From positions 1 through 56,357 of the IMG/VR virus record IMGVR_UViG_3300047509_000227: a stretch of DNA of 56,357 nucleotides, one strand, 5' to 3'. The position numbers and the translations under genes were made by a program. The notes under the pieces were generated by a model. It saw only the letters and a list, made by a program, of their open reading frames with translations, ran no database searches and was not told the origin of the DNA. This DNA comes from a virus. Positions 591-54,891 of the stretch are shown piece by piece. Numbering within the stretch: position 1 is the stretch's first letter; each line of letters begins with the position of its first letter.

Positions 591-736
591 TGATGACGCC
601 AACCGAGGCAGCCATCATAGTCCTGGCCCTCGAAGAGCAGATCAGTAAATCGTCACGGGAGCGAAAGCTGTTGGCGCAGGCGAGGGAGATTTTGTGGCAA
701 GAAGCCCTTCGGATTGTGACCGAGGCGAGAGAGTGA
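590..736 (+). CDS. small helical protein
   Basis: A 48-residue frame with ATG at 590 overlapping the upstream TGA, and a TGA at 734-736 overlapping the next GTG start. It is almost wholly helix-forming (MMTPTEAAIIVLALEEQ..., ending IVTEARE) and charged. Translational coupling on both sides is the main evidence that it is real. Function unknown. Confidence 0.6.
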   Translation: MMTPTEAAIIVLALEEQISKSSRERKLLAQAREILWQEALRIVTEARE

Positions 737-969
737 CCACTCGCACCGAAGAACTCGGGCCGCTCTTGTATCAGGCCCTCGCGGAGCCCATCGGCCTCTT
801 GCTGCGCGTAAGTGAGCCGCAGAAGGTGATGCAGGCCCTACATCAGGTGAAGTATAAAGCAGGCGACCCATCGCTGATGATACTCCAAATCCGGATGCTC
901 GATCATCCCGAAGGCAACATCGCGATCACGAAGTCAGACAAAGACCTACCACTTCCAGGAGGCCTCTAA
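733..969 (+). CDS. hypothetical protein
   Basis: A 78-residue protein read from a GTG at 733 that overlaps the preceding stop (GTGA), beginning VTTRTEELGPLLYQAL. An upstream in-frame ATG at 694 would lie inside the previous gene. It is mixed alpha/beta with no cysteines and no recognised motif. It sits in a run of overlapped small early genes. Confidence 0.6.
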   Translation: MTTRTEELGPLLYQALAEPIGLLLRVSEPQKVMQALHQVKYKAGDPSLMILQIRMLDHPEGNIAITKSDKDLPLPGGL

Positions 970-970
970 C

Positions 971-1177
971 GTGTCAAAGCGCTCACCCGTCAAGCAATCC
1001 CGGAGGCATGTTTGGCTTTACGACGAGGACTGGGAGTGGATTAAGCAGCGATACTCAGGGACGATCGGCCCCTCTGAAGCCGTGAGGAAGATCATTCATA
1101 CGATGGTCTTGAGAATTAAGCAGCAAGAGCAACATGCTGTCGAGGCCTCTGGCAAGGCCAAGCTGAAGGGAGAGTAA
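971..1177 (+). CDS. ribbon-helix-helix-like small protein
   Basis: A 68-residue basic protein starting at GTG 971, with AGGAGG upstream. The pattern HVWLYDEDWEWIKQRYSG then GPSEAVRKIIH resembles small phage DNA-binding proteins of ribbon-helix-helix type: a beta strand followed by two helices, the second beginning with a Ser-Glu-Ala cap. The tail is lysine-rich. A transcription-regulator role is inferred; no operator is identified. Confidence 0.55.
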   Translation: MSKRSPVKQSRRHVWLYDEDWEWIKQRYSGTIGPSEAVRKIIHTMVLRIKQQEQHAVEASGKAKLKGE

Positions 1178-1178
1178 T

Positions 1179-1586
1179 ATGGGAGTCAAAATCATTTCAG
1201 GTGTGGGCAATTCTGTTCCCTTTGATAAGACAGATTGGACCGTACCAGTTGATGGGAAGAGTGGACTTGTTGTGGAGATAGTCGGCATCACGGACTTGGC
1301 CAAGATACTGGATGTAGTTGGTGGCGGTGGAGGTGGTGGTTACTCGGTTACGAATTTCAGGGCACCTGAGTCTCCGTCAAAGCCATTAAGTGGGCTCGAA
1401 TTACAAATCTCTCGACTTTGTACCTTTATCGAGGAAGATTTGAAAGATCGACGGCTTCAGCGACACCAGGAGATCGAACTTCGTATCATCATAGATAGAG
1501 AAGGGGGAGTTGGAGGTGCAGATGGAGGTGCAGGCCATTATGGCGGAGGCTCTGGTGGGAACATGGAAGTGAAAAGAGAGCTATGA
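1179..1586 (+). CDS. hypothetical protein with glycine-rich segments
   Basis: A 135-residue protein, not recognised. Residues 1-45 look like beta strands. A run of eight or so glycines then separates a central helical part (SGLELQISRLCTFIEED...) and a second Gly/Ala-rich stretch lies near the C-terminus. It starts one base after the previous stop and overlaps the next gene by ATGA. The glycine runs suggest flexible linkers. Confidence 0.6.
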   Translation: MGVKIISGVGNSVPFDKTDWTVPVDGKSGLVVEIVGITDLAKILDVVGGGGGGGYSVTNFRAPESPSKPLSGLELQISRLCTFIEEDLKDRRLQRHQEIELRIIIDREGGVGGADGGAGHYGGGSGGNMEVKREL

Positions 1587-1849
1587 CGATGTCTGACCAA
1601 CAATTGCCTCAGTCGAACGTCCTGGCCGAGGCCGCGGCGACGAGCCTCTCGGAGATGCTTTCGACAGACCCCGAGAAGATCACGCCGGAGATCGAGCTGA
1701 GAATTATCCAAGCCCTGCGTGACCAGCGAGCCCGCTTTGCGGAGGCTGAGGCCGCAGGGAAGCCGGTGCCGAGGGTGGGGAAGGGGGAGAAAAAGACAGC
1801 TAAGACAATTCTCTCCTCGCTCGCAAACGTCGATGACCTCGGGCTCTGA
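1583..1849 (+). CDS. small acidic protein with C-terminal DDLGL
   Basis: An 88-residue, mostly helical protein starting at the ATG in an ATGA overlap. It ends NVDDLGL, one of five early proteins here with a C-terminal LGL (see findings). A basic, lysine-rich stretch (GKGEKKTAK) precedes the tail. Function unknown; it lies directly before the Cas4/RecB-like nuclease gene. Confidence 0.65.
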   Translation: MTMSDQQLPQSNVLAEAAATSLSEMLSTDPEKITPEIELRIIQALRDQRARFAEAEAAGKPVPRVGKGEKKTAKTILSSLANVDDLGL

Positions 1850-1852
1850 CGT

Positions 1853-2815
1853 ATGATCGAGATGTCAATTCCTGATACGTCTGAGAACTCGTCCTTCTCA
1901 CGAGTGCAGTCCGCGATGCAGACGGCGGTGGACTCGACCTCGATTGGCGAGTTCAAGCTCTGCGAACGGAAATACTATTACTCGATCATCTGGGGCTACC
2001 AGCCGAGACTACAGAATGTTCATCTCACCTTTGGCCTGTTGTTGCACGCTGCGAGCGCAACCTTTCACCACGCCAAGAATGAGGGTCAAAGTCACGACCA
2101 AGCGTTGCAGACAACCATCCGATGGGCCTTGCAGGCGACGTGGAACAGAGAGTTGCAGCGCCCGTGGATCAGCAACGACCCGAGCAAGAACCGGCTCTCG
2201 CTCCTCCGGGCGATTGTTTGGTACTTCGATCAGTTCGCCGAAGACCCACTCGAAACTGTTATTCTCTCGAACGGCAAACCTGCCGTCGAACTCGACTTCC
2301 AGGCCGACAGCGGCCTGCGAACTTCGCGAAGCGAGCCCATTGTTGTCTGCGGCAGGTTTGACCGAATCGTCAGGTTTAACGACCGCCCACATGGACTCGA
2401 CGCCAAAACCACCGGATATCAGCTCGATGCGAATTTCTTCGCCCAGTTCTCGCCCGATAATCAGATCTCGCTCTACAACACCGCGGGGAGACTTGTCTTT
2501 CACGAGCCCATCCAGGGCTTTATCATCGACGGGATACAGGTCGGGGCGAACTTTGTCCGAGTCCACAGGGGGCTAGTGCCGAGGCCACTCGGGACGCTCG
2601 AAGAGTGGTGGGGGGAGTTTGGTCTCTGGGTGCAGCAGATGGAAGCAGCGGCCGAGGCACGATACTGGAAGATGAACGACAAAGCGTGTACGATGTATGG
2701 CGGGTGTAAGTTCAGGCCGGTCTGCTCTCGCTCGCCACAGGCCCGAGAGCAGTGGCTCAAGGCCGATTATGCCCGCAGGGTCTGGGACCCGATCAACCGG
2801 AGAGAGGATGTTTGA
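1853..2815 (+). CDS. PD-(D/E)XK nuclease, Cas4/RecB-like
   Basis: A 320-residue protein of the RecB/Cas4 exonuclease family, expected to trim DNA ends during replication or recombination. The nuclease signature is seen as GRFDRIVRF (the Gly-x-x-Asp motif) followed by GLDAKTTG, where Asp and Lys form the D-x-K part of the site. A cysteine in FKLCERKYYYS near residue 37 and a C-terminal cluster (KACTMYGGCKFRPVC) have the spacing typical of an iron-sulfur cluster in Cas4/AddB proteins. It lies next to the ATPase and the putative ssDNA-binding protein, as in many phage replication modules. No cas genes or CRISPR array are present. Confidence 0.85.
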   Translation: MIEMSIPDTSENSSFSRVQSAMQTAVDSTSIGEFKLCERKYYYSIIWGYQPRLQNVHLTFGLLLHAASATFHHAKNEGQSHDQALQTTIRWALQATWNRELQRPWISNDPSKNRLSLLRAIVWYFDQFAEDPLETVILSNGKPAVELDFQADSGLRTSRSEPIVVCGRFDRIVRFNDRPHGLDAKTTGYQLDANFFAQFSPDNQISLYNTAGRLVFHEPIQGFIIDGIQVGANFVRVHRGLVPRPLGTLEEWWGEFGLWVQQMEAAAEARYWKMNDKACTMYGGCKFRPVCSRSPQAREQWLKADYARRVWDPINRREDV

Positions 2816-2817
2816 CA

Positions 2818-2991
2818 GTGGGAAGATATTTCATCACTCTGACTGAAGATCAGGAAAAATTGATCGAGAGTTCTCGTGGTGATTTTTCTGCTCCAAGAAA
2901 TCAACAAGATTTCCAGCATCGTGTTCACGACTCTCTCCAAGAACTCGTCAAGTCTCATTGTGAAAAACTGAAAGGCACCATGCAACAATGA
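2818..2991 (+). CDS. small hypothetical protein
   Basis: A 57-residue protein beginning at GTG 2818, with GAGAGGA upstream in the end of the nuclease gene. It is helical and charged (YFITLTEDQEKLIESSRGD...) and AT-richer than its neighbours. Its stop overlaps the ATG of the ATPase gene. Function unknown. Confidence 0.55.
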   Translation: MGRYFITLTEDQEKLIESSRGDFSAPRNQQDFQHRVHDSLQELVKSHCEKLKGTMQQ

Positions 2992-3920
2992 CAAAACTTT
3001 CTGACCACCAGTCCGCCGCGACGACGAAGATGCTCTTCATCGGGGACTCTGGTTCCGGGAAAACAGGCGGGTTGGCTTCGTTAGCCAAGGCAGGCTATAA
3101 TCTCCGAATTATCGACCTCGACAATGGCCTCGACGTTCTGGCCAATCTCCTGCGGGGCAACCCTGTGGCCGAGGCCCGAGTCGAGTTCGAGACCCTCACC
3201 GATAAGATGCGAAAGGTCGGCGGTAGGCTCGTTCCGGCCAAGGCCACGGTCTGGTCGAGAACGATCGACCTCTTGGACAACTGGTCCCCGGAGGTGACGA
3301 AAAAATGGTCTCCGTCTGTGGAGGCAGCCAACCTCGGTCCGCTCGTCACATGGGGCGAGCAAGACATTCTCGTTATCGACTCTCTGACAATGCTCTCCAC
3401 AGCAGCGCTCAATCACATCTTGGCCATGAATGCCCGACTCGGCCAGAGGCCGCATCAGAGCGACTGGTATGACGGCCAACAGCTCGTCGAGGGGATGTTG
3501 CAGACACTCTACGATGATAATATCAAGTGCAACGTCATTGTCATCTCGCATATTACTTACATTGGGGAGGAGGGCGGGCCGACCCACGGCTACCCGAACA
3601 CCCTCGGCAAGGCCCTTCCACCAAAGGTCGGGAGATATTTCAACAGCTGCCTGATGGCCAGAACGACTGGGGCAGGGACGGGCCTGCGGAGGAAGATTCT
3701 GACCAACACCGCTGGGGCGGTCGAACTCAAGAACACCGCCCCGATGCAGGTCAAGCCAGACTACCCACTCGAGACGGGCCTCGCCGACTACTTCCGAGAC
3801 GTGAGATCTGCGATTGTGGCCAAGCCCCCAGCAGTGGCCAAATCGGAGCCTCCGCCTCCGCCTCCGTCAGAACCTATTGGTAGTGCTGGAATATCGGCAA
3901 CACCATCAACAGTCTCGTAA
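2988..3920 (+). CDS. RecA-like P-loop ATPase (AAA_24 type)
   Basis: A 310-residue ATPase of the kind found in phage replication and recombination modules (Sak/RecA-like). Walker A is GDSGSGKTG near residues 19-27, and Walker B is DILVIDS near residue 128. The C-terminal 30 residues are Pro/Ser-rich with a run of six prolines, probably disordered. It sits between a Cas4-like nuclease and a putative ssDNA-binding protein. A role in annealing or strand exchange is inferred from this pairing. Confidence 0.8.
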   Translation: MTKLSDHQSAATTKMLFIGDSGSGKTGGLASLAKAGYNLRIIDLDNGLDVLANLLRGNPVAEARVEFETLTDKMRKVGGRLVPAKATVWSRTIDLLDNWSPEVTKKWSPSVEAANLGPLVTWGEQDILVIDSLTMLSTAALNHILAMNARLGQRPHQSDWYDGQQLVEGMLQTLYDDNIKCNVIVISHITYIGEEGGPTHGYPNTLGKALPPKVGRYFNSCLMARTTGAGTGLRRKILTNTAGAVELKNTAPMQVKPDYPLETGLADYFRDVRSAIVAKPPAVAKSEPPPPPPSEPIGSAGISATPSTVS

Positions 3921-4001
3921 GAGAGGGCAAGGAGGTCCGCCCGAAGGACCTCGCACCGTGCAGTTCAACCAACATTGCACTCAACTCAAGGATCACTCAA
4001 A

Positions 4002-4466
4002 ATGGCAGTTAATTTCAAGGCCCTCCTATCGAAGCCCGCGGGGCAGGCAGAACGTCCCAAGGTCCTACCAGCAGGGGACTATCCAGGTATTGTGGCGAAG
4101 TTCGAGATGGGCGAGTCGAGCCAGAAGAAGACGCCTTATGTGCGGTTTTTGGTCAATCTGACTGGCTGGCCCGACGACGTTCCGGAGGAGGATCGAGCCA
4201 TTACGAAGGAAGATGGGACACAAGTCCCGATCGATCTGTCGAAGAAGCAGCAGAAGGTTGATTTCTACCTCACAGAAGATGCACTCTTTCGTCTCGACGA
4301 CTTTATTAAGTCCGTGGGGGCGGAGACTGCGGGCAAGACCTACGAGGAGATTATTCCCGAGTGTGTCGGGGCGCACGTCATCCTCGCGCTGACGCAGGAG
4401 ACGAATGACAAGGGCGACGAGGTTACGATGTTCAATCGCGCTGGAAAGATGGTCGGCCAGACCTGA
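4002..4466 (+). CDS. putative ssDNA-binding protein (DUF669-like)
   Basis: A 154-residue protein starting at ATG 4002, preceded by AAGGA. The pattern LPAGDYPGIVAKFEMGES...KTPYVRFLVNLTG resembles phage DUF669-type proteins, which occur beside RecA-like ATPases and are thought to bind single-stranded DNA. The C-terminal half holds TYEEIIPECVGAHVILALTQE. It is the last gene before a strong terminator. The family call rests on pattern and position and could be wrong in detail. Confidence 0.65.
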   Translation: MAVNFKALLSKPAGQAERPKVLPAGDYPGIVAKFEMGESSQKKTPYVRFLVNLTGWPDDVPEEDRAITKEDGTQVPIDLSKKQQKVDFYLTEDALFRLDDFIKSVGAETAGKTYEEIIPECVGAHVILALTQETNDKGDEVTMFNRAGKMVGQT

Positions 4467-4485
4467 CGACTGTGCGATAGCTCTT

Positions 4486-4540
4486 GACCGGGGCCAGCTT
4501 CCCCCGCTCGCTCAGCATGAGCTGGCCCCGGTCCTTTTTT
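4486..4540 (+). terminator. intrinsic terminator with 14-bp stem
   Basis: GACCGGGGCCAGCT (4486-4499) and AGCTGGCCCCGGTC (4520-4533) are perfect reverse complements with a 20-nt loop, followed by CTTTTTT (4534-4540). This is a textbook rho-independent terminator on the + strand. It follows the putative ssDNA-binding protein and splits the early operon into two parts. Confidence 0.92.
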
Positions 4541-4573: not shown

Positions 4574-4598
4574 AATTGTTCCAATGAGAAGAACAATT
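4574..4598 (+). promoter_or_regulatory. 8-bp inverted repeat over the ribosome site of the ParB-methyltransferase gene
   Basis: AATTGTTC (4574-4581) and GAACAATT (4591-4598) form a perfect inverted repeat with a nine-base spacer. It ends directly before the ATG at 4600 and covers the GAGAAG ribosome site. It could be an operator for self-control by the ParB/helix-turn-helix part of the protein, or an RNA hairpin that hides the ribosome site. Confidence 0.5.
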
Positions 4599-4599
4599 G

Positions 4600-5994
4600 A
4601 TGACCATTACAGACCGTGTGCAACGGATTGCCATTGCAGACATCCGCATCGACCGCGAAAATCGCCAGCGCCGAAATATCGTCACAGCCGATCTCGAGAG
4701 GTCGATTGCTAAGAATGGCCTCTTGCAGCCCATTATCATCGACCAAGACCTTTGGCTGAAGGCCGGGGAGCGTCGGCTAACGGCCTGCCGCAACCTAGGG
4801 CATCAAGATATTCTCGCACGGTTCGTCGAAGACCTCTCGCCGATCGAGGCCCAGATTATTGAGCTTGAGGAGAACATTAAGCGTTCGGACCTCGAGTGGC
4901 CGGAGATCATCCGAGCCGTCGGGACCATTCATGCGCTCTATGAGCAGACCGAGCCAGGGTGGACCATGACAGACACTGGGGAGGCTCTCGGGCTGGCCCA
5001 ACCGACAATCTCGACCTACCTCCGGGTCTTTGAGGTCTTGGACGATCCCCGAGTCGCCGACTCCGGGTCGATCAACGAGGCGGCGAATAAAATCCGTCGG
5101 AGAGACCAACGCGCCGCGGGTGATGCCCTCGAAGAGCTACTCGGCACGGCCGAGGCCCTGCTGCCAAGTGAGTTTGCGACGAATGCCGCTGCGGCGGCGA
5201 TTGACCAGACAGCCGTCGTCACGGCAGCAGCGGGTGTCACACTGGCACCGCTCGCACCGCAGACGAAGGGGCCAGAACCGGAGGTCATCCTCAACAGCAG
5301 CTTTCTCGAGTGGGCACCCCTCTATGAGGGGCCGAAATTCAACCTCATCCACTGCGACTTCCCCTATGGGATCGGGGTGTTCGCTGGGCCGCAGGGTCGG
5401 CAGGGCGAGCCGGGCAAGCTCTACGACGACTCGGCCGAGACCTATTGGGCACTCTTACACTGTCTGCTGGATAATCTCGACCGAGTGATGTCCCTCTCGG
5501 GCCATCTGATGTTCTGGTACTCGGCCAGACTCGATGGTGAGGCCATTGACCAGACCCGCAGGGTGTTTCTGCAGAAAGCACCCTCGCTCAAGTTTTACCA
5601 CTACCATCTGATCTGGCTGAAGTCCGACAACTCGGGTATTGCCAGCGACCCGAGATACACCCCGAGGCATGTTTATGAGACTTGTTTGCTGGCGCGCCGC
5701 TCGGATAGGAATTTGCGGATGATTAAGTCCGATGCCTACAGCGCACCGACAGATAAAAAGCTGCACGTCAGTACGAAGCCCGAGCCAATGTTGAGATTCT
5801 TCATGGAAATGATCGTGGATGAGACCACGAGTCTCTTGGACCCGACTTGCGGCAGCGGTGCGGCCCTGCGCGCAGCCGACTCCCTGGGGGCGAAGAGACT
5901 GTTGGGGCTCGAAATTGACTCGGCGTGCTGTGAGGTCGCCCGCACGGCATTCAGGAACGCCCGGCACCTGCGGACGGCGGCGAGCCATCTCTAA
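4600..5994 (+). CDS. ParB-like / DNA methyltransferase fusion
   Basis: A 464-residue fusion. Residues 1-100 are a ParB N-terminal domain with KAGERRLTACRNLG (GERR at about 56-59). Residues 122-145 form a helix-turn-helix (TGEALGLAQPTISTYLRV). After an Ala-rich linker (about 185-220) comes an amino-methyltransferase with the catalytic DFPYG at about 253-257 and the AdoMet-binding LLDPTCGSGAALRA at about 412-425. This order (catalytic motif before AdoMet motif) is that of beta-class N4-cytosine/N6-adenine enzymes. DFPY instead of DPPY is an accepted variant. A TTG codon at 4597 could also start it. The likely role is sequence-specific DNA methylation, for protection or regulation. Confidence 0.88.
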   Translation: MTITDRVQRIAIADIRIDRENRQRRNIVTADLERSIAKNGLLQPIIIDQDLWLKAGERRLTACRNLGHQDILARFVEDLSPIEAQIIELEENIKRSDLEWPEIIRAVGTIHALYEQTEPGWTMTDTGEALGLAQPTISTYLRVFEVLDDPRVADSGSINEAANKIRRRDQRAAGDALEELLGTAEALLPSEFATNAAAAAIDQTAVVTAAAGVTLAPLAPQTKGPEPEVILNSSFLEWAPLYEGPKFNLIHCDFPYGIGVFAGPQGRQGEPGKLYDDSAETYWALLHCLLDNLDRVMSLSGHLMFWYSARLDGEAIDQTRRVFLQKAPSLKFYHYHLIWLKSDNSGIASDPRYTPRHVYETCLLARRSDRNLRMIKSDAYSAPTDKKLHVSTKPEPMLRFFMEMIVDETTSLLDPTCGSGAALRAADSLGAKRLLGLEIDSACCEVARTAFRNARHLRTAASHL

Positions 5995-6012: not shown

Positions 6013-6288
6013 ATGACAAAGCTCTGTAAAGATTGCGTCCACTGTCACGGCGCAGCCGACTATGGACTTTTATGGCTACCGATTATTGGATGGTTGGTTT
6101 TACTCGTTCAAATCATCTCAGAATATTCAATTAGATTTGCGACGTGTACTCTCGAACACAACGCTCCTGATTCGAGCGAGCAATTCGTCACTGGGAGAGT
6201 CAATTTTGAGATGAGAGAGAAGTTCTGCACGGTTTGTCGCCAATATGGCGAGTGTGGACCTGAAGGCAAGAACTGGGAACGGAAGTGA
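6013..6288 (+). CDS. small Cys-rich membrane protein
   Basis: A 91-residue protein, AT-richer than its neighbours. It begins MTKLCKDCVHCHG, has a hydrophobic segment (LLWLPIIGWLVLLVQII, about residues 19-35), and ends with FCTVCRQYGECGPEG. The CxxC pairs on both sides of one membrane span suggest a metal-binding or redox membrane protein. Its TGA overlaps the GTG of the glycosylase gene. Not assigned to a family. Confidence 0.6.
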   Translation: MTKLCKDCVHCHGAADYGLLWLPIIGWLVLLVQIISEYSIRFATCTLEHNAPDSSEQFVTGRVNFEMREKFCTVCRQYGECGPEGKNWERK

Positions 6289-7445
6289 CACACGAGCCTG
6301 CCCCTGCCTTCAAACATACTTCCGGGCCGCGCACTGCCAAGATTGTCATCGTCGGCGAGGCGTGGGGCGAGTCCGAGGATATGATGAAGAAGCCCTTTGT
6401 GGGAGAGTCAGGGAAAGAGCTTTTTAGGATGTTGGGTGAGGCCACTATTGGTGGCCAGCCTGCTCCGGAATTGCACGCTGCTGCTTGTGCCCTGCACAAA
6501 TACGGTTTGGCCTGGGTCAAAGAGCGCGAAGCGTGGCTGGACGCCGCGAGCATTATGATGACGAACGTCCTGGCGCTGCGTCCTCCAGACAACAAGCTCG
6601 ACTATCTCTGCCTTACGAAAGATGAGTTGCCACATGGCTATTCTCTACCACCCATTGCCAAGTCGGGCTCGAAGCAGCTTTTCCTCCATCCTGATCTGCT
6701 CGGGGAACTTACACGTCTGGAAGAGGAACTCACTACTGTTAGGCCAAATCTCATCGTTGCCCTTGGTAATCCAGCATGTTGGGCCACCTTGCGGACAACG
6801 GCCATTACCTCAATCCGCGGCACCATCGCACAGGGCATCGAGAACATAAAGGTCCTCCCGACATTCCATCCTGCTGGGGTGATGAGAAATTGGGCCTGGC
6901 GCCCGATCGTCGTCGCGGACCTGATCAAAGCCCTCCGCGAGGCCCAATTTCCCGAGATAATCCGGCCGCAGAGGACGATCATTATCAATCCCTCTATTGA
7001 GGAGCTTGAAGAGTGGACTGAACTTACATTGGCAACGGCCACTGCTCTGTCTTGCGACACAGAAACGGAACTTGGCCAAATCAAAATGATCTCGTTCGCA
7101 CCGACAGTCGATCACGCAATGGTCGTGCCGTTTTTAGACTGGTCAAAACCTGGAGGGTCATACTGGCCAACAGAGGAACTAGAGTTTAGGGCCTGGGTCT
7201 GTGTTCGCCGCCTCTTGGAGAGTCCCATTCCAAAGCTGTGGCAGAATGGGATGTACGATTTGCAGTATACGATTCGGAGGAAGATCTGGCCTCAAAGGTG
7301 CGAGTTCGATCCGATGCTTCTCCATCATTCGATCTTTCCAGAGATGAACAAGGGCCTCGGTTTTCTCGGCTCGATCTACACGAACGAGGCCTCATGGAAG
7401 CTGATGCGGAAACAGAAAACCGATACGGAGAAGAGAGATGAGTAA
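6285..7445 (+). CDS. uracil-DNA glycosylase fused to N-terminal half of a 3'-5' exonuclease domain
   Basis: A 386-residue protein starting at GTG 6285. Residues 15-225 are a family 4/5-type uracil-DNA glycosylase, with VGEAWGESED (about 23-32) and TFHPAGVMRN (about 193-202). The cysteines of the family 4 iron-sulfur cluster are not obvious. Residues 230-386 match the start of the family A polymerase proofreading domain: Exo I as SCDTETE (about 256-262), Exo II as WQNGMYDLQ (about 319-327), then KGLGFLGSIY. It stops at TAA 7443, before Exo III; that motif (YCGLD) is on the protein from 7875. Both frames are the same, so one ancestral gene appears to have been interrupted. Confidence 0.85.
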   Translation: MTHEPAPAFKHTSGPRTAKIVIVGEAWGESEDMMKKPFVGESGKELFRMLGEATIGGQPAPELHAAACALHKYGLAWVKEREAWLDAASIMMTNVLALRPPDNKLDYLCLTKDELPHGYSLPPIAKSGSKQLFLHPDLLGELTRLEEELTTVRPNLIVALGNPACWATLRTTAITSIRGTIAQGIENIKVLPTFHPAGVMRNWAWRPIVVADLIKALREAQFPEIIRPQRTIIINPSIEELEEWTELTLATATALSCDTETELGQIKMISFAPTVDHAMVVPFLDWSKPGGSYWPTEELEFRAWVCVRRLLESPIPKLWQNGMYDLQYTIRRKIWPQRCEFDPMLLHHSIFPEMNKGLGFLGSIYTNEASWKLMRKQKTDTEKRDE

Positions 7446-7878
7446 GTGGTGGAAACCATCTCGTGAGCCAGATTTTGTAGTTGGAGGCAAAAGCAATCCA
7501 TATATGAAGAGATGGTATGTAATTCCTCGAAACAGGCTCTTTAACATCTATCTACATCAGATCATGAGGTCTGACGATGATCGTGCTCTTCACGATCACC
7601 CTTGGATCAATCTCTCGATAATCCTTGAAGGGGGATATGTTGAGCACACAATCGCTGACGGTGGTATTCACTATCAACATCCACTCAAAAAAGGTCAATG
7701 GCGCTGGCGCTGGCCAACCAAAGCACATCGGCTCGAAATCTCGACTCCTTGTTGGAGCCTGTTCATTACAGGCCCTGTTGTGAGAGCTTGGGGATTTCAC
7801 TGTCCTCAAGGCTGGCGTCACTTTAAGGACTTCGTCGCAGACAGTGATCGAGGTCTGATTGGAAGAGGTTGCGAGTGA
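7438..7878 (+). CDS. cupin-like phage protein inserted in the polymerase gene
   Basis: A 146-residue protein starting at ATG 7438, inside the last codons of the glycosylase/exonuclease gene, and ending at TGA 7876-7878, overlapping the polymerase GTG. The core has the cupin look: ALHDHPWINLSIILEGGYVEH gives two histidines (HDH) and a downstream Glu, and KAHRLEI a third histidine. It ends with LFITGPVVRAWGFHCPQGW. Such small cupins occur in many phages, with unknown substrate. It is AT-richer than the flanking polymerase parts, which supports acquisition. It contains no nuclease motif, so it is not an obvious homing element. Confidence 0.75.
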   Translation: MSKWWKPSREPDFVVGGKSNPYMKRWYVIPRNRLFNIYLHQIMRSDDDRALHDHPWINLSIILEGGYVEHTIADGGIHYQHPLKKGQWRWRWPTKAHRLEISTPCWSLFITGPVVRAWGFHCPQGWRHFKDFVADSDRGLIGRGCE

Positions 7879-9431
7879 CCCTCGTTGCCACCCATTTGCT
7901 CAAACCTGGCCAGCTCTCCGACTCGGCCAACATGCAGGTCTACTGCGGCCTCGACTCGTGTGTTGCGCTCGAGGTCCACCAAGCAATCTCCGAAGAGCAC
8001 GGCCAGCCACCAACCTACGACTTCGAGCGCGCCCTGCAGGCACCATACTTAGACATGATGCTCCGAGGCTTCGCCGTTGACGAGATCTCTCGCCGCGCCG
8101 TCGCGACACAGTTGCACGAGCGCCTCGCCCACATTCGATCCCTCATCGACCGACTCGCGACTGTCGTCTGGGACAAACCCCTCAATCCACAATCGCCGAA
8201 GCAGTTCAAAGAGTTCTTCTACGGCGCGATGGGGATTAAGGAGATCATCTCGTACAAGAAGGGTGTGAGAAGAGTCTCGACGGATCGCGATGCCCTGGAT
8301 AAGATAGAAGAGTATCTTCATGCCCGACCGTTCGTCCTCGCCATCGGCCGAGCCAGAGATATCAAGAAAGAACTCGAGTTCTTCGAAGCCTCCATCCGGA
8401 ATGGAAGGATGTTCGCGGGGTACAACATCTCCGGCACGGTGACTGGTCGGCCCTCATCAAGCGACAACGCTTTTGGCGAGGGGCGAAATATGCAGAACAT
8501 TCCCGAACCGCTGCGGTATCCATTCATCGCTGATATTGGCAAGAAGCTCTGTGTGATTGATCTCGAACAGGCCGAGGCCAGAGACTTTGGCTTTCTCTGT
8601 GGCTGTCTTTTCGACAAGTGGGGCTTTCTGGATAAGTGCGAAGGTGGGGATCTGCATACCGCGAATGCTCGAGACGTGTGGCCAGAGCTGGCGTGGACGG
8701 GGCACAAACTTCAGGATCGGAAGATCGCCGACCAACTCTACTACCGGGACTTCTCCTACAGGTACATGGCCAAGAGACTGGGGCATCTCACAGACTACAT
8801 GGGCACGGCCTATACGAGTGCAAAGACGCTCAAGATTCCCCAACAGATGGCCGAAGACTTCCGCCAGCGCTACGCGACCGGGACGAACGCGGCCCATCCC
8901 GAGATTCCCCTCTACTGGGAGTGGTGCTCCAGGCAGATCCAGACGACCTACCAACTCACAACGCCCTTCGGCCGACAGAGACATTTCTTCGGCCGAGCCA
9001 ATAATGATGACGTTCTCCGTGAGGCGATTGCCTACGTTCCGCAATCGATGACGGCGGATCGCATGAGCTTGGGGATGTGGAGACTCTGGCGCTATGGACG
9101 AGGCCGAGTGGAGCTTCTCCATAACGGCTACGACTCGGTCACTTTCCAGTTCGATGATAGAGGGCCAAAGTATGAGAAAGAAATTGTCTCGTGGGCCTCG
9201 GCGCTGTGTGTTGTACCTCTCCGGGCACCGAATGGAAGGGACTTCGTCATCCCGACCGAGGCCAAGACAGGGTGGAACTGGGGCTCCGAGGTCACGCAAG
9301 ACGAGGTCAACGAGGCTCTCCGAAAGGGCAAAAAACCACCGCGGCTCAACACCGAGGGCCTGAGAAAATTCTCTCCCTCCGTGCCGGACATGCGCCAGAG
9401 GCAGACTGGCCTGCAAAGGGTAATGACATGA
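7875..9431 (+). CDS. family A DNA polymerase, C-terminal part (Exo III plus polymerase)
   Basis: A 518-residue protein read from GTG 7875, with GGAAGAGG six bases upstream. After about 20 residues without clear homology it has VYCGLD (about 22-27), the Exo III Y-x3-D motif of the proofreading domain. The polymerase domain follows: the GR...NMQNIPEP loop (about 191-212), motif A as CVIDLEQAEARDFG (about 226-239), motif B around YMAKRLGHLTDYMGT (about 292-306), and motif C as NGYDSVTFQF (YDS instead of HDE, common in phages). It should copy the phage genome. Proofreading would need the upstream protein carrying Exo I and II. Confidence 0.9.
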   Translation: MTLVATHLLKPGQLSDSANMQVYCGLDSCVALEVHQAISEEHGQPPTYDFERALQAPYLDMMLRGFAVDEISRRAVATQLHERLAHIRSLIDRLATVVWDKPLNPQSPKQFKEFFYGAMGIKEIISYKKGVRRVSTDRDALDKIEEYLHARPFVLAIGRARDIKKELEFFEASIRNGRMFAGYNISGTVTGRPSSSDNAFGEGRNMQNIPEPLRYPFIADIGKKLCVIDLEQAEARDFGFLCGCLFDKWGFLDKCEGGDLHTANARDVWPELAWTGHKLQDRKIADQLYYRDFSYRYMAKRLGHLTDYMGTAYTSAKTLKIPQQMAEDFRQRYATGTNAAHPEIPLYWEWCSRQIQTTYQLTTPFGRQRHFFGRANNDDVLREAIAYVPQSMTADRMSLGMWRLWRYGRGRVELLHNGYDSVTFQFDDRGPKYEKEIVSWASALCVVPLRAPNGRDFVIPTEAKTGWNWGSEVTQDEVNEALRKGKKPPRLNTEGLRKFSPSVPDMRQRQTGLQRVMT

Positions 9432-9613
9432 TTGGGAATGCCTACAGAATAACCGCCAAAGACGCTGTTGGACAGGAGATGAGATTCGCCGTCTTCTCTC
9501 GCTTCCGGGCACTCGAATTGGCCAAATCTCTCGAGAACAAGAAGTTCCGAGACATCACGATCAAGATCGGGACCGAGATCTACCAGCCTCCATTCGAAGA
9601 GAGCCTGCCATGA
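9428..9613 (+). CDS. small hypothetical protein
   Basis: A 61-residue protein with ATG at 9428, overlapping the polymerase stop. Its end overlaps the next ATG (ATGA). It looks like a small alpha/beta domain (NAYRITAKDAVGQEMRF...). No motif recognised; the tight coupling to the polymerase gene supports that it is translated. Confidence 0.6.
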   Translation: MIGNAYRITAKDAVGQEMRFAVFSRFRALELAKSLENKKFRDITIKIGTEIYQPPFEESLP

Positions 9614-9948
9614 GTATTCGAACGGTGCCCGAGCGACGCGAGCTTCCGACCCGACGAAACTCTTCCGCCATCACCTTCTACCATGAGAGCGTCGAGTATA
9701 AGGTTTACTTCTCCCAGTATGAGCCTGACGGTAGGCTCGCGGAGATCTTCATCGAGGTGGCAAAGACCGGCACCTCGGCCAACATCTTTGCAAAAGAGTG
9801 CGCTGTTATTCTGTCGCTCGCGTTGCAGTACGGAACGCCCCAGGAGACTCTCTACGCGGCCTTGCCGAAGGTGCAGGACGGGAGCCCGGCGGGGCCAATC
9901 GGCAAGGCCATGCGCTACGCTCTCACAGGAGAGATTCCCCTTCCATGA
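9610..9948 (+). CDS. TSCPD-domain protein
   Basis: A 112-residue protein that looks like the TSCPD domain found at the C-terminus of some ribonucleotide reductases and alone in phages. The match lies in the central segment VYFSQYEPDGRLAEIFIEV, followed by KTGTSANIFAKECAVILSLAL and PAGPIGKAM. The classical cysteine of the family is not in the usual place (CAVILS only). A nucleotide-metabolism link is known for the family, but the role of stand-alone phage copies is not. It starts in an ATGA overlap. Confidence 0.7.
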   Translation: MSIRTVPERRELPTRRNSSAITFYHESVEYKVYFSQYEPDGRLAEIFIEVAKTGTSANIFAKECAVILSLALQYGTPQETLYAALPKVQDGSPAGPIGKAMRYALTGEIPLP

Positions 9949-9955
9949 CGAAAGG

Positions 9956-11200
9956 ATGCCGCTTGCGGTGGCCCTGAATGGCGTTTGGATCGACTTTATC
10001 GAGCAATGGCTCGATTACACGGCTGGTACAAACTCGCCACCGATGTTCAGACTCTGGTCGGGGATTTCGCTCGTTGCAGGGGCACTCGAGAGACGGGTCT
10101 GGACGCAGACGGGGCAGAGGTCGGTCTTTCCGAATCTCTACACGATGCTGGTCGCGCCGCCTGGCGTCGGGAAGTTCATCATCGAGGACGTTCGGGATCT
10201 CTGGAATATTGTGCTCAAGCCCAACACCGACACCTTTGCGTTCAGAGTCGGGCCGGATAATATGACCAAGGCAGCGATGATCGACGCTCTCGCCGGGGCA
10301 CAGCAGATTGTGCTACCGCAAAAGGGCCCTCCACAGACCTACCATTCACTCTTGGTCGCGACGGAAGAGATGGAGACTTTCATGCCCGAGTACGACCGAG
10401 AGTTCATCGGGGTGCTCAACTCGATCTACAACAACAAACCGTACTATGACGAACTTCGCCGCCATGGGCCGAATAGAAAGATCAGAATTGAAAATCCCCA
10501 ACTCAACATCCTCGCCGGAGCGCAACCTGCCTACATGGCCTCCCGGTTCCCGGAGGATATGTGGAGCACAGGGTTCTCCAGGCGGATTATAATGGTCTAC
10601 TGTGGTGAGGGGATTTTCCAAGAGTTGTGGGACTCCCCGCAGGCGCTGTCGGGCTCGCTCACCGTCATGGCCAGGAGGCTGGGGCAGATGTCTGCCCTCT
10701 TCGGCGAAGCCCGCTGGGCCGTAGACGCCGCCGACGGCATCGCCGAGTGGCATCGCACAGGCTGCCCGCCGGTTCCACAGCATTCGAAACTCTCCAACTA
10801 CAACCGCTCCCGGACGGTGCACGTCATAAAACTCGCGACCATCTCGGCCATTGCTCGAACGGGGACGCTTGTTGTCACGCTCGCCGACTTCATCCGCGGT
10901 CGAGCCTGGTTGTTGGAGGCCGAACGGGCGATGCCTGACATCTTCCGCGAGATGATTGGGAAGTCCGACCAGCAGGTCATTGAAGAATTGCACTATTATG
11001 TGACGGCCGTCTGGGCCAAGGACCGACAGCAGGCCGTCAATGGCGAAAAGATAATGGAGTTCCTCCTCCAGCGTGTGCCGACGGAGAAAGCCCAAAAGGT
11101 GATGCAAGCCGCCGCGGCGGCGAACTACATCCAGCGCGCCGCAGGGACCGACAATCACTGGCTGCCCCGGCCGAAGATCGAGGCAAGAGGGGTCCAATGA
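9956..11200 (+). CDS. DUF3987-like P-loop protein (putative replicative helicase)
   Basis: A 414-residue protein resembling phage DUF3987/helicase-type replication proteins. The N-terminal part FIEQWLDYTAGTNSPPMFR leads into a P-loop-like VAPPGVGKFIIEDVRDLW (about residues 62-79). In it the Ser/Thr that normally follows the P-loop lysine is Phe. Other blocks are SLLVATEEMETFM (Walker B-like), LNILAGAQPAYM (sensor-like) and GFSRRIIMVY (arginine-finger-like). The C-terminus looks like a winged helix. The start is set at ATG 9956; its ribosome site is weak. It probably serves DNA replication; whether it hydrolyses ATP is doubtful given the altered P-loop. Confidence 0.65.
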   Translation: MPLAVALNGVWIDFIEQWLDYTAGTNSPPMFRLWSGISLVAGALERRVWTQTGQRSVFPNLYTMLVAPPGVGKFIIEDVRDLWNIVLKPNTDTFAFRVGPDNMTKAAMIDALAGAQQIVLPQKGPPQTYHSLLVATEEMETFMPEYDREFIGVLNSIYNNKPYYDELRRHGPNRKIRIENPQLNILAGAQPAYMASRFPEDMWSTGFSRRIIMVYCGEGIFQELWDSPQALSGSLTVMARRLGQMSALFGEARWAVDAADGIAEWHRTGCPPVPQHSKLSNYNRSRTVHVIKLATISAIARTGTLVVTLADFIRGRAWLLEAERAMPDIFREMIGKSDQQVIEELHYYVTAVWAKDRQQAVNGEKIMEFLLQRVPTEKAQKVMQAAAAANYIQRAAGTDNHWLPRPKIEARGVQ

Positions 11201-52851: not shown

Positions 52852-53345
52852 CCACCAAGGACGAACTGGGGATTAAGTCTGCGGAGTTGTTCTCCGAGAA
52901 ACGCCCGGGAGGGATACTCCGTCAGTTGTTTGTAACAGCGGCCCATGATATGACCTCAGGTGTGCCAGGGCGAAACTACGGTCAACACGGCACGGACTGG
53001 TGGTTTGTCGTGAGCAGAAATGGGGAGGCCGCTGTTGCTTTGCGCTGGATGTTCCCCTTCCGGCTCAGGCGGAATAGAAGAGATGATGAGAGCTCGTTTA
53101 CTGGACTTGGCGATCTCTCGTTTCACTCGCATATCAGGCTGAGCGAGTACGATAGCCCCTGTGATAAGTGCCAGTGGCTGAGTGAAAAGGAATGTTACTC
53201 GAGTTTGAGTTCGCTCGCAGCAGGGACAATCTTTGAACGGTTTGTCGCTGATCCAGCAGGACTTTGGGAAGCTCTTGAGGATCATCTCGTAAGTTTAGAG
53301 GTGCAGATTGCAATCGAGAAGGGCGAGGTGAGAAGTGGCGGTTGA
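52848..53345 (+). CDS. hypothetical protein
   Basis: A 165-residue protein, ATG 52848 in an ATGA overlap. It has DWWFVVSRNGEAAVALRWMF then RLSEYDSPCDKCQWLSEKEC, giving a CxxC...C pattern, and an acidic C-terminal helix. Not recognised. It overlaps the helicase start by eleven bases. Confidence 0.6.
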   Translation: MTTKDELGIKSAELFSEKRPGGILRQLFVTAAHDMTSGVPGRNYGQHGTDWWFVVSRNGEAAVALRWMFPFRLRRNRRDDESSFTGLGDLSFHSHIRLSEYDSPCDKCQWLSEKECYSSLSSLAAGTIFERFVADPAGLWEALEDHLVSLEVQIAIEKGEVRSGG

Positions 53346-54891
53346 TCCGACAGACGAGCAACTGGCGATCGCCGACGCTGCCAAGACGCGAAGTGAGTCG
53401 ATTCTTGTACCTGCATACGCAGGCTGCGCGAAGACGACTACCCTCACACTCGCGGCCCGCAACATAAAGGTCCCGGCCCTGGCACTGGCGTTTAATAAGC
53501 GCAACGCCGAGGATCTGAAGCCGCGCTTCGCGGGGAACTTCGTCGTTCGAACGCTCAATGGCCTCGGGCATCTGGCCTGGGCCAGGGGCAATCCCCGAGT
53601 CAACAAGTTCGAGATCGACGATAGGAAGCTCTCGAAACTCATCTCACTCGTCTGCAAAGACCGGCAGGTTGATCTTGCAGAGGAGCAGTGGGCAGCGCTT
53701 CGGGCGCTCGTACAGCGGGCCATGACCCAAGGGCTGGTTCCTGCGTCTACTGGCTTGCCAGGACTCGTAGCGGATGATGCGGATGGCTGGCTCGCCATCG
53801 GTGCCGATATTGGCCTCGATGACGACGACACGAGCTTCTTGTGGGAACTCGCCCGAGAGATTCTCGAAAAGGACATTGAGCTTGCAAGACAGGGTATTAT
53901 CTCGTTCGACGACCAAGTCTACTGTAGTGCAATGCTTGGGGGGCTCTTTCCGAAATATCCGGTTATTCTCACTGACGAGACGCAAGACTTCGCACCGCTG
54001 AACTTCGTGATGCTCCGAAAGGCGCTCCGGCCAGATGCTCGGCTGATGTCTGTGGGCGACGAAAAACAAAGCGTCTACGCCTTCCGTGGGGCGGATGGCG
54101 AGGCCATGACCACAGCGCAGACGCTGAGGGAGAACTGGGTCCATCTACCGCTGACGATGACCTTTCGGTGCCCGAAGTTGGTCGTGGGTCGCCAGCAGGC
54201 ACATGCCCCAGGCTTTCGGGCGTTTGAGGGCAATCGGCAGGGGCGCTTCGCACAGTGGTCGTTCTCGCCAGAAGACGTGGAGTTTGGTGCGGGGTGGACC
54301 TGGGCAGAGGTCGAGGCCCTCAGGCCGGTTGGTGGGTCGCTTGCGGTCCTTTGCAGGAATAACGGCCCGCTTATTGGGCTGGCCTTCCGACTCTTACGTC
54401 GGAATATCCCCTGTCATGTCCTTGGGCGGGACATCCTGAAGGGCGTCGTGGGCCTCATTCACAAGCTCTGCCCGGATGATAACGTCTCGTGCGAGACTCT
54501 CGTGGGGAGACTCACGGAGTGGACCGACACGCAGGTTGCTCTCGCGCTCGCCAACGATCAGTCGAACAAGGTCGAACAAATCTACGACAAGGCCGAGGCC
54601 ATTCGCTGTGCCATCGAGGGCGCCCAGGCAGCGACCGTCAAGCAACTCACTCAGGGGCTCGAGGCACTCTTCGCAAAGACTGAGGGGCGAGTCACGCTCG
54701 CCTCCATACACCGGGCGAAGGGCGCGGAGTGGGACCTCGTAGTGCACCTCGATTGGTGGCGCATCCCGAGCCGTTGGGCAACTACAGCTATCGCGAAGCG
54801 CCAAGAGTCTAATCTTCGCTACGTCTGCGAGACCCGGACGAGGGATGTGCTGGTGTTGGCCTCGCTCAATGAGATGAAAAAGGGAGACTAA
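53335..54891 (+). CDS. UvrD/Rep-like SF1 helicase
   Basis: A 518-residue superfamily 1 helicase, from GTG 53335. Motif I is PAYAGCAKTTTL (about 26-37), motif II VILTDETQD, motif III SVGDEKQSVYAFRGA, motif IV TMTFRCP, motif V SIHRAKGAEWDLV, and motif VI NLRYVCETRTRD. AGCAKT in place of AGTGKT is unusual. It should unwind DNA 3'-5', and fits replication or recombination with the Cas4-like nuclease. Confidence 0.9.
   Translation: MAVDPTDEQLAIADAAKTRSESILVPAYAGCAKTTTLTLAARNIKVPALALAFNKRNAEDLKPRFAGNFVVRTLNGLGHLAWARGNPRVNKFEIDDRKLSKLISLVCKDRQVDLAEEQWAALRALVQRAMTQGLVPASTGLPGLVADDADGWLAIGADIGLDDDDTSFLWELAREILEKDIELARQGIISFDDQVYCSAMLGGLFPKYPVILTDETQDFAPLNFVMLRKALRPDARLMSVGDEKQSVYAFRGADGEAMTTAQTLRENWVHLPLTMTFRCPKLVVGRQQAHAPGFRAFEGNRQGRFAQWSFSPEDVEFGAGWTWAEVEALRPVGGSLAVLCRNNGPLIGLAFRLLRRNIPCHVLGRDILKGVVGLIHKLCPDDNVSCETLVGRLTEWTDTQVALALANDQSNKVEQIYDKAEAIRCAIEGAQAATVKQLTQGLEALFAKTEGRVTLASIHRAKGAEWDLVVHLDWWRIPSRWATTAIAKRQESNLRYVCETRTRDVLVLASLNEMKKGD

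Follow-up and report, generated by a model that had tools for sequence, protein, structure and literature searches.

In family A DNA polymerases, the exonuclease and the polymerase usually lie on one polypeptide, although this is not strictly defining, and a DEDD 3'-5' exonuclease with the motifs Exo I, Exo II and Exo III is present in most proofreading members. In phages LUZ24, PaP3 and tf and in phage phiEco32, a family A polymerase and a 3'-5' exonuclease are made from two genes (PMC3517423, PMC3890496). The OM43 phages MEP401 and MEP402 carry a split DNA polymerase in which the authors suspect an intron; its break lies inside the polymerase domain, with the exonuclease and the N-terminal part of the polymerase on one side and the C-terminal part of the polymerase on the other (PMC10580990). 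In Aeromonas phages 25 and 44RR, gp43A and gp43B purify together with polymerase activity, and the split NrdA of Aeh1 is active (PMC2988022). These T4-like splits affect family B or other enzymes in single phages and are tied to homing endonucleases or to an untranslated insert (PMC2988022).

We analysed the 56,357-bp virus record IMGVR_UViG_3300047509_000227 (hereafter the window, meaning this whole stretch of DNA), in which a polymerase occupies two genes, N and C. The locus resembles the LUZ24, PaP3, tf and phiEco32 systems in being a two-gene family A polymerase with other genes between, and the OM43 phages in that a small gene separates the two ORFs of a family A polymerase, an arrangement common to most relatives (PMC10580990). 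As with gp43A/43B, Aeh1 NrdA and T4 topoisomerase, an essential phage enzyme is in two chains, and theirs reassemble (PMC2988022). The place of the cut differs. In LUZ24, tf and phiEco32 the cut is at a domain boundary, and a small chain without a uracil-DNA glycosylase (UDG) domain holds all of Exo I to Exo III (DLEGDG, GHNILDYD and YCLQD in the proteins read), whereas in the window the polymerase chain carries Exo III. The shared two-gene layout with other genes between (PMC3517423, PMC3890496) would fit a complete exonuclease subunit beside a polymerase subunit, but every member read carried Exo III on its polymerase chain and no complete exonuclease was found on the small chain in the window's clade, which makes a split of the LUZ24 type extremely improbable here. 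The literature on split phage DNA polymerases, searched largely outside subscription papers, yielded no account of this break; the family A splits located there lie at domain boundaries or inside the polymerase, and a cut through the catalytic site was, as far as we found, not described.

Gene layout and the two subunits

The features of the window are collected in Table 1. An earlier note on this DNA had placed Exo I (CDTETE) and Exo II (QNGMYD) on a first protein ending at a TAA stop, Exo III (YCGLD) followed by the polymerase motifs on a second protein starting at a GTG, and a different gene between them, and each was found where it had been placed. A further Exo III elsewhere in the first protein, which would have spoken against the note's reading, was not present.

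Table 1. Features of the split polymerase locus and other genes of the window (A1 and A2, clade alignments)
Feature	Position	Strand	Basis or remark
PD-(D/E)XK exonuclease gene	1853-2815		Replication block
Sak4-like protein gene	2988-3920		Replication block
ParB-methyltransferase gene	4597-5994		Replication block
N subunit gene: UDG domain and Exo I/Exo II part of PolA 3'-5' exonuclease	6285-7445	+	GTG to TAA, 386 aa; Pfam UDG, phrog_17, clade alignment A1
Uracil-DNA glycosylase domain	6324-6896	+	Pfam PF03167, 1.6e-17
Exo I motif DTET, catalytic D258 and E260	7056-7067	+	D258, E260 and T261 invariant in A1
Exo II motif QNGMYD, catalytic D325	7242-7259	+	Q/N/Y/D invariant in A1
Conserved C-terminal tail of N subunit, KRDE-stop	7431-7445	+	Overlaps next start codon
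Intervening gene, cupin-type	7438-7878	+	phrog_4786 'cysteine dioxygenase'; ATG 7438 to TGA 7878
C subunit gene: Exo III segment and thumb/palm/fingers of family A polymerase	7875-9431	+	Pfam DNA_pol_A, phrog_17, A2
Conserved N-terminal extension of C subunit (MxxIxTxxL...)	7875-7940	+	About 22 aa long, preceding Exo III
Exo III motif YCGLD, Y23 and catalytic D27	7941-7955	+	Y, G and D invariant in A2
Polymerase motif A, DLE (D229)	8559-8567	+	Invariant in A2; window reads DLEQAE
Polymerase motif B (R296, K300, H304, Y308)	8760-8798	+	Invariant in A2
Polymerase motif C Asp (D420)	9132-9134	+	At least 90% conserved in A2
TSCPD-domain gene	9610-9948		3' of C gene; replication block
DUF3987-type primase	9683-11200		ORF; replication block
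Phage helicase	53335-54891
Portal and terminase		-

The phrog_17 (DNA polymerase) profile is covered at 553-798 by the N protein and at 805-1239 by the C protein; the halves therefore abut in the profile, and both genes belong to one polymerase family. The C protein matched Pfam DNA_pol_A (PF00476) at 1.3e-17, over the cut-off, and its membership of family A is borne out by motifs A, B and C, with motif C reading YDS in the window and HDS or HDA in most relatives. The DEDD 3'-5' exonuclease motifs are complete only as a pair, with Exo I and Exo II on N and Exo III on C.

In the N protein, both motifs of the UDG superfamily, the GEAPG-like motif (GEAWGE) and the HP motif (FHPAG), are present, and the best PDB matches to the domain were family-4 UDGs, including TM0511. 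The glycosylase domain of the N subunit is thus a putative family 4-like UDG. PF01612 alone did not match the exonuclease part of the N subunit; a search of the record with PF01612 and PF00929 found no second proofreading exonuclease, a weak negative since PF01612 misses the N subunit as well.

Distribution and origin of the split

A search with the C protein matched 35 viral contigs, and the N half was a separate ORF in all 35. Wider scans, each covering the best 80 of more than 500 relatives, gave at least 201 loci, some of them sharing one contig. Exonuclease and polymerase were on separate ORFs rather than a single polypeptide at 187 of the 201 loci (186 with both halves on the same strand and one, L025, with halves on opposite strands); three loci were intact, all of them outgroups, and 11 had one half alone. 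The set contains at least 122 distinct junctions and at least 90 complete nonredundant pairs at <90% identity. Among the matches listed, no fused gene occurred within the split clade, and fused genes were found only in more distant phages, which answers the earlier note's question about intact homologues. A scan of bacterial and archaeal genome contigs yielded just four loci, all on short MAG contigs.

The clade consists mostly of uncultured bacterial viruses and has a cultured member, Caulobacter phage Kuura (OQ067476; PMC9959647), which has the same split, in proteins WCD44107 and WCD44104, with two small genes between the halves, and is known in this respect from its annotation. The N half of Kuura is annotated as 'hypothetical protein', an annotation that can now be corrected, and a word search of the main text of PMC9959647 found neither 'split' nor 'uracil'. 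That the split is merely a recent insertion, frameshift damage or a misassembled chimera peculiar to this phage would draw on nothing beyond the single window; the same break recurs at 122 distinct homologous junctions, so chance is excluded, and the many independent contigs together with the isolated phage Kuura exclude a chimera, leaving damage or misassembly a practically negligible explanation. The two-gene split claimed in the earlier note stood, and it is shared by a whole clade instead of being peculiar to this phage.

In a tree of 56 split and eight intact polymerases, in which three outgroup branches are long, the split rows formed one clade with support of 98/99. The nearest intact relatives were Microcystis phage Mel-JY34 (810 aa) and phage ctMlz233 (MW202489, 779 aa), which have the same UDG-exonuclease-polymerase order but in one chain. 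The tree is consistent with one origin of the split, which by these comparisons is ancestral and fixed across a broad phage clade. Most reports of phage replication enzymes in two pieces concern a single genome or a few, whereas here the split is fixed in a diverse clade.

Phage ctLwi270 (MW202554, L040) was considered as a clade member and left out of the clade set: its polymerase is also on two ORFs, but it is broken downstream of Exo III, which represents a different event or a frameshift. At one other locus (L078) the N ORF ends early (profile 6-207), by a frameshift or a real loss of the exonuclease part.

The junction and the genes between the halves

Alignment with intact relatives placed the break in the loop between the WK after Exo II and the YxxxD of Exo III. 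The window N protein ends ...WKLMRKQKTDTEKRDE, and at the 186 one-strand loci the N ORF ended 0-27 nt past the profile end, with L040 and L078 as exceptions. From WK to Exo III, the intact proteins of Mel-JY34 and ctMlz233 have a stretch of about 17 residues that contains neither stop nor start. The earlier note had taken ANMQVYCGLD as the start of the second protein, and this was not upheld, as the conserved N-terminal extension of the C subunit precedes Exo III. Because of this extension, the two halves together are about 19 residues longer than Mel-JY34 between WK and Exo III. The halves are in the same frame in the window, as had been pointed out, but relatives show all frame relations, and the shared frame is a coincidence.

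The N stop and the cupin start overlap by 8 nt (ATGAGTAA, 7438-7445), and the cupin stop and the C start by 4 nt (GTGA, 7875-7878). An ATG overlapped the end of the N gene at 97 of 122 junctions; the first ORF in the gap started 8 nt inside the N gene in 28 cases and 4 nt inside it in 16. The N tail was KRDE at 35 and KKDD or KKDE at 34 of the 122 junctions. This tail may be kept partly for its codons, which overlap the start of the next gene and perhaps form a ribosome-binding stretch. The stop and start codons overlapped as TAATG or TGATG at three loci (L028, L191 and L197) and as ATGA at one (L030); such directly abutting pairs indicate that no insert is needed for the split. At the opposite-strand locus L025 the halves lie at 703-1713 (-) and 3026-4534 (+), and translational coupling is therefore not strictly required.

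The slot between the halves held nothing, or DUF7768 (25 ORFs), DUF1937/DUF4406 (19) or HNH-type (8) genes, or genes for a methyltransferase, a HAD or a TSCPD protein, or the cupin of the window; these slot genes are mutually unrelated. The slot looks like a gene-exchange site in what would be a translationally coupled operon, and the HNH genes would be candidates for having started the split. The TSCPD-domain gene, which follows the C gene in the window, lies within the N-C slot in a relative (L005:5645-5953), a change of position that is gene shuffling around the polymerase. Genes of the phrog_4786 cupin family, with 79 phage records, occur commonly in phages of Mycobacterium and Gordonia.

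The gap could also be a self-splicing intron with an intron ORF, in which case the mature mRNA would encode an intact polymerase. Group I introns are common in phage DNA polymerase genes (cited in PMC10580990), and the HNH-type ORFs form a cluster among the gap ORFs. However, Rfam gave no match in 12 loci or in the window, where E values of up to 1 were admitted. The gap genes show no relationship to one another, and many are coupled codon to codon. Gaps as small as -4 to 2 nt occur, and the halves of L025 are on opposite strands. The conserved start and extension belong to the C gene itself, and a spliced product would still contain the extra residues at the join. An intron is, on these data, very improbable.

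Conservation, selection and co-divergence

Residues D258, E260, N321, Y324 and D325 of the N subunit and Y23 and D27 of the C subunit were invariant in the A1 and A2 alignments. Exo I and Exo II were found in N at 100 of 101 loci, and Exo III in C likewise at 100 of 101; the misses were L078, whose N ORF is truncated, and L104, where the motif is YCCLD with Y and D retained. Pooled over 13 disjoint pairs, dN/dS was 0.129 for the UDG domain, 0.098 for the exonuclease part of N, 0.095 for the exonuclease part of C and 0.089 for the polymerase; synonymous differences are near saturation, so these values are rough and their order of magnitude alone counts. They indicate that both exonuclease pieces are under strong purifying selection. 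The N and C distances were correlated (Mantel r 0.74, 0 of 2000 permutations), which is partly shared descent within one genome.

UDGs can act alone in other contexts, and Taq-like polymerases live without proofreading. The two genes might accordingly encode independent proteins, with N a UDG carrying a vestigial exonuclease fragment and C an exonuclease-minus polymerase. Against this, neither chain shows variation in its proofreading carboxylates, the lone Exo III Asp on C among them, and strong constraint acts on both exonuclease pieces; we consider two independent proteins improbable.

Fused structure model of a relative

A structure prediction, as had been suggested, was obtained for a relative and not for the window pair. 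At this locus (L031) the halves share a frame and one TGA is all that separates them, so that the read-through could be folded; it was modelled with AlphaFold from an unpaired alignment of 37 rows. The fusion model (pLDDT 88.5, pTM 0.82) was Klenow-like, with about 650 columns matched to Klenow and to Bst polymerase I. Its pLDDT fell below 50 only at the break (326-342), the main disordered stretch, and in a short loop (550-557). When the C chain was modelled alone, its first 40 residues had pLDDT 64-83 and the N-terminal strand was absent; in the fusion, the same stretch had pLDDT 78-94 and a beta strand was formed. The model suggests that the conserved N-terminal extension of the C subunit docks on N, but the fusion forces proximity, and the fold is therefore no independent proof of binding.

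A probable proofreading site divided between two chains

The claim of the earlier note that the proofreading site is divided between two chains is the best supported reading, because the split is clade-wide, the catalytic residues are invariant, purifying selection is evident, the halves co-diverge and the fused model is confident. We infer, with a probability of about 0.86, that the pair is an obligate two-chain UDG-exonuclease/polymerase whose active site is split between the chains. As the cut passes through the proofreading active site, the two proteins would almost certainly have to join in order to proofread. By analogy with split gp43 and NrdA, which reassemble into active enzymes, assembly of the window pair is plausible.

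In such a mechanism, one replicative family A DNA polymerase would be encoded as two chains, both made from one translationally coupled operon. The N subunit would supply the uracil-glycosylase domain together with the larger part of the exonuclease fold and three of its four catalytic carboxylates, and the C subunit would supply the last exonuclease segment (the fourth carboxylate and the Tyr) and the whole polymerase. Assembly of the chains would complete the 3'-5' proofreading site across the interface, and the UDG domain would be part of the assembled enzyme. A single split in the clade ancestor would have fallen in a surface loop just ahead of Exo III, probably as a stop/start overlap, and would have left a slot in which unrelated small genes come and go, occupied by the cupin gene in the window.

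The clade would offer a natural system for building a replicative proofreading site from two chains and would show how a gene break becomes an obligate complex. Switchable proofreading may arise, because the proofreading site would exist just when both chains meet; that the phage switches proofreading and uracil surveillance by the UDG through subunit association or stoichiometry, with the variable slot gene tuning it, is a speculative and rather unlikely extension of the two-chain reading.

An insert in polymerase motif B

Motif B of three C subunits (L021:5935-8340, L034:5986-8382 and L035:3780-6185) contained an in-frame insert, about 290 aa long, which Pfam did not name. The insert starts with CLTxDHEVLT and ends at or near GKISITGN, ahead of S/TNY, and in these sequence features it looks like a putative intein.
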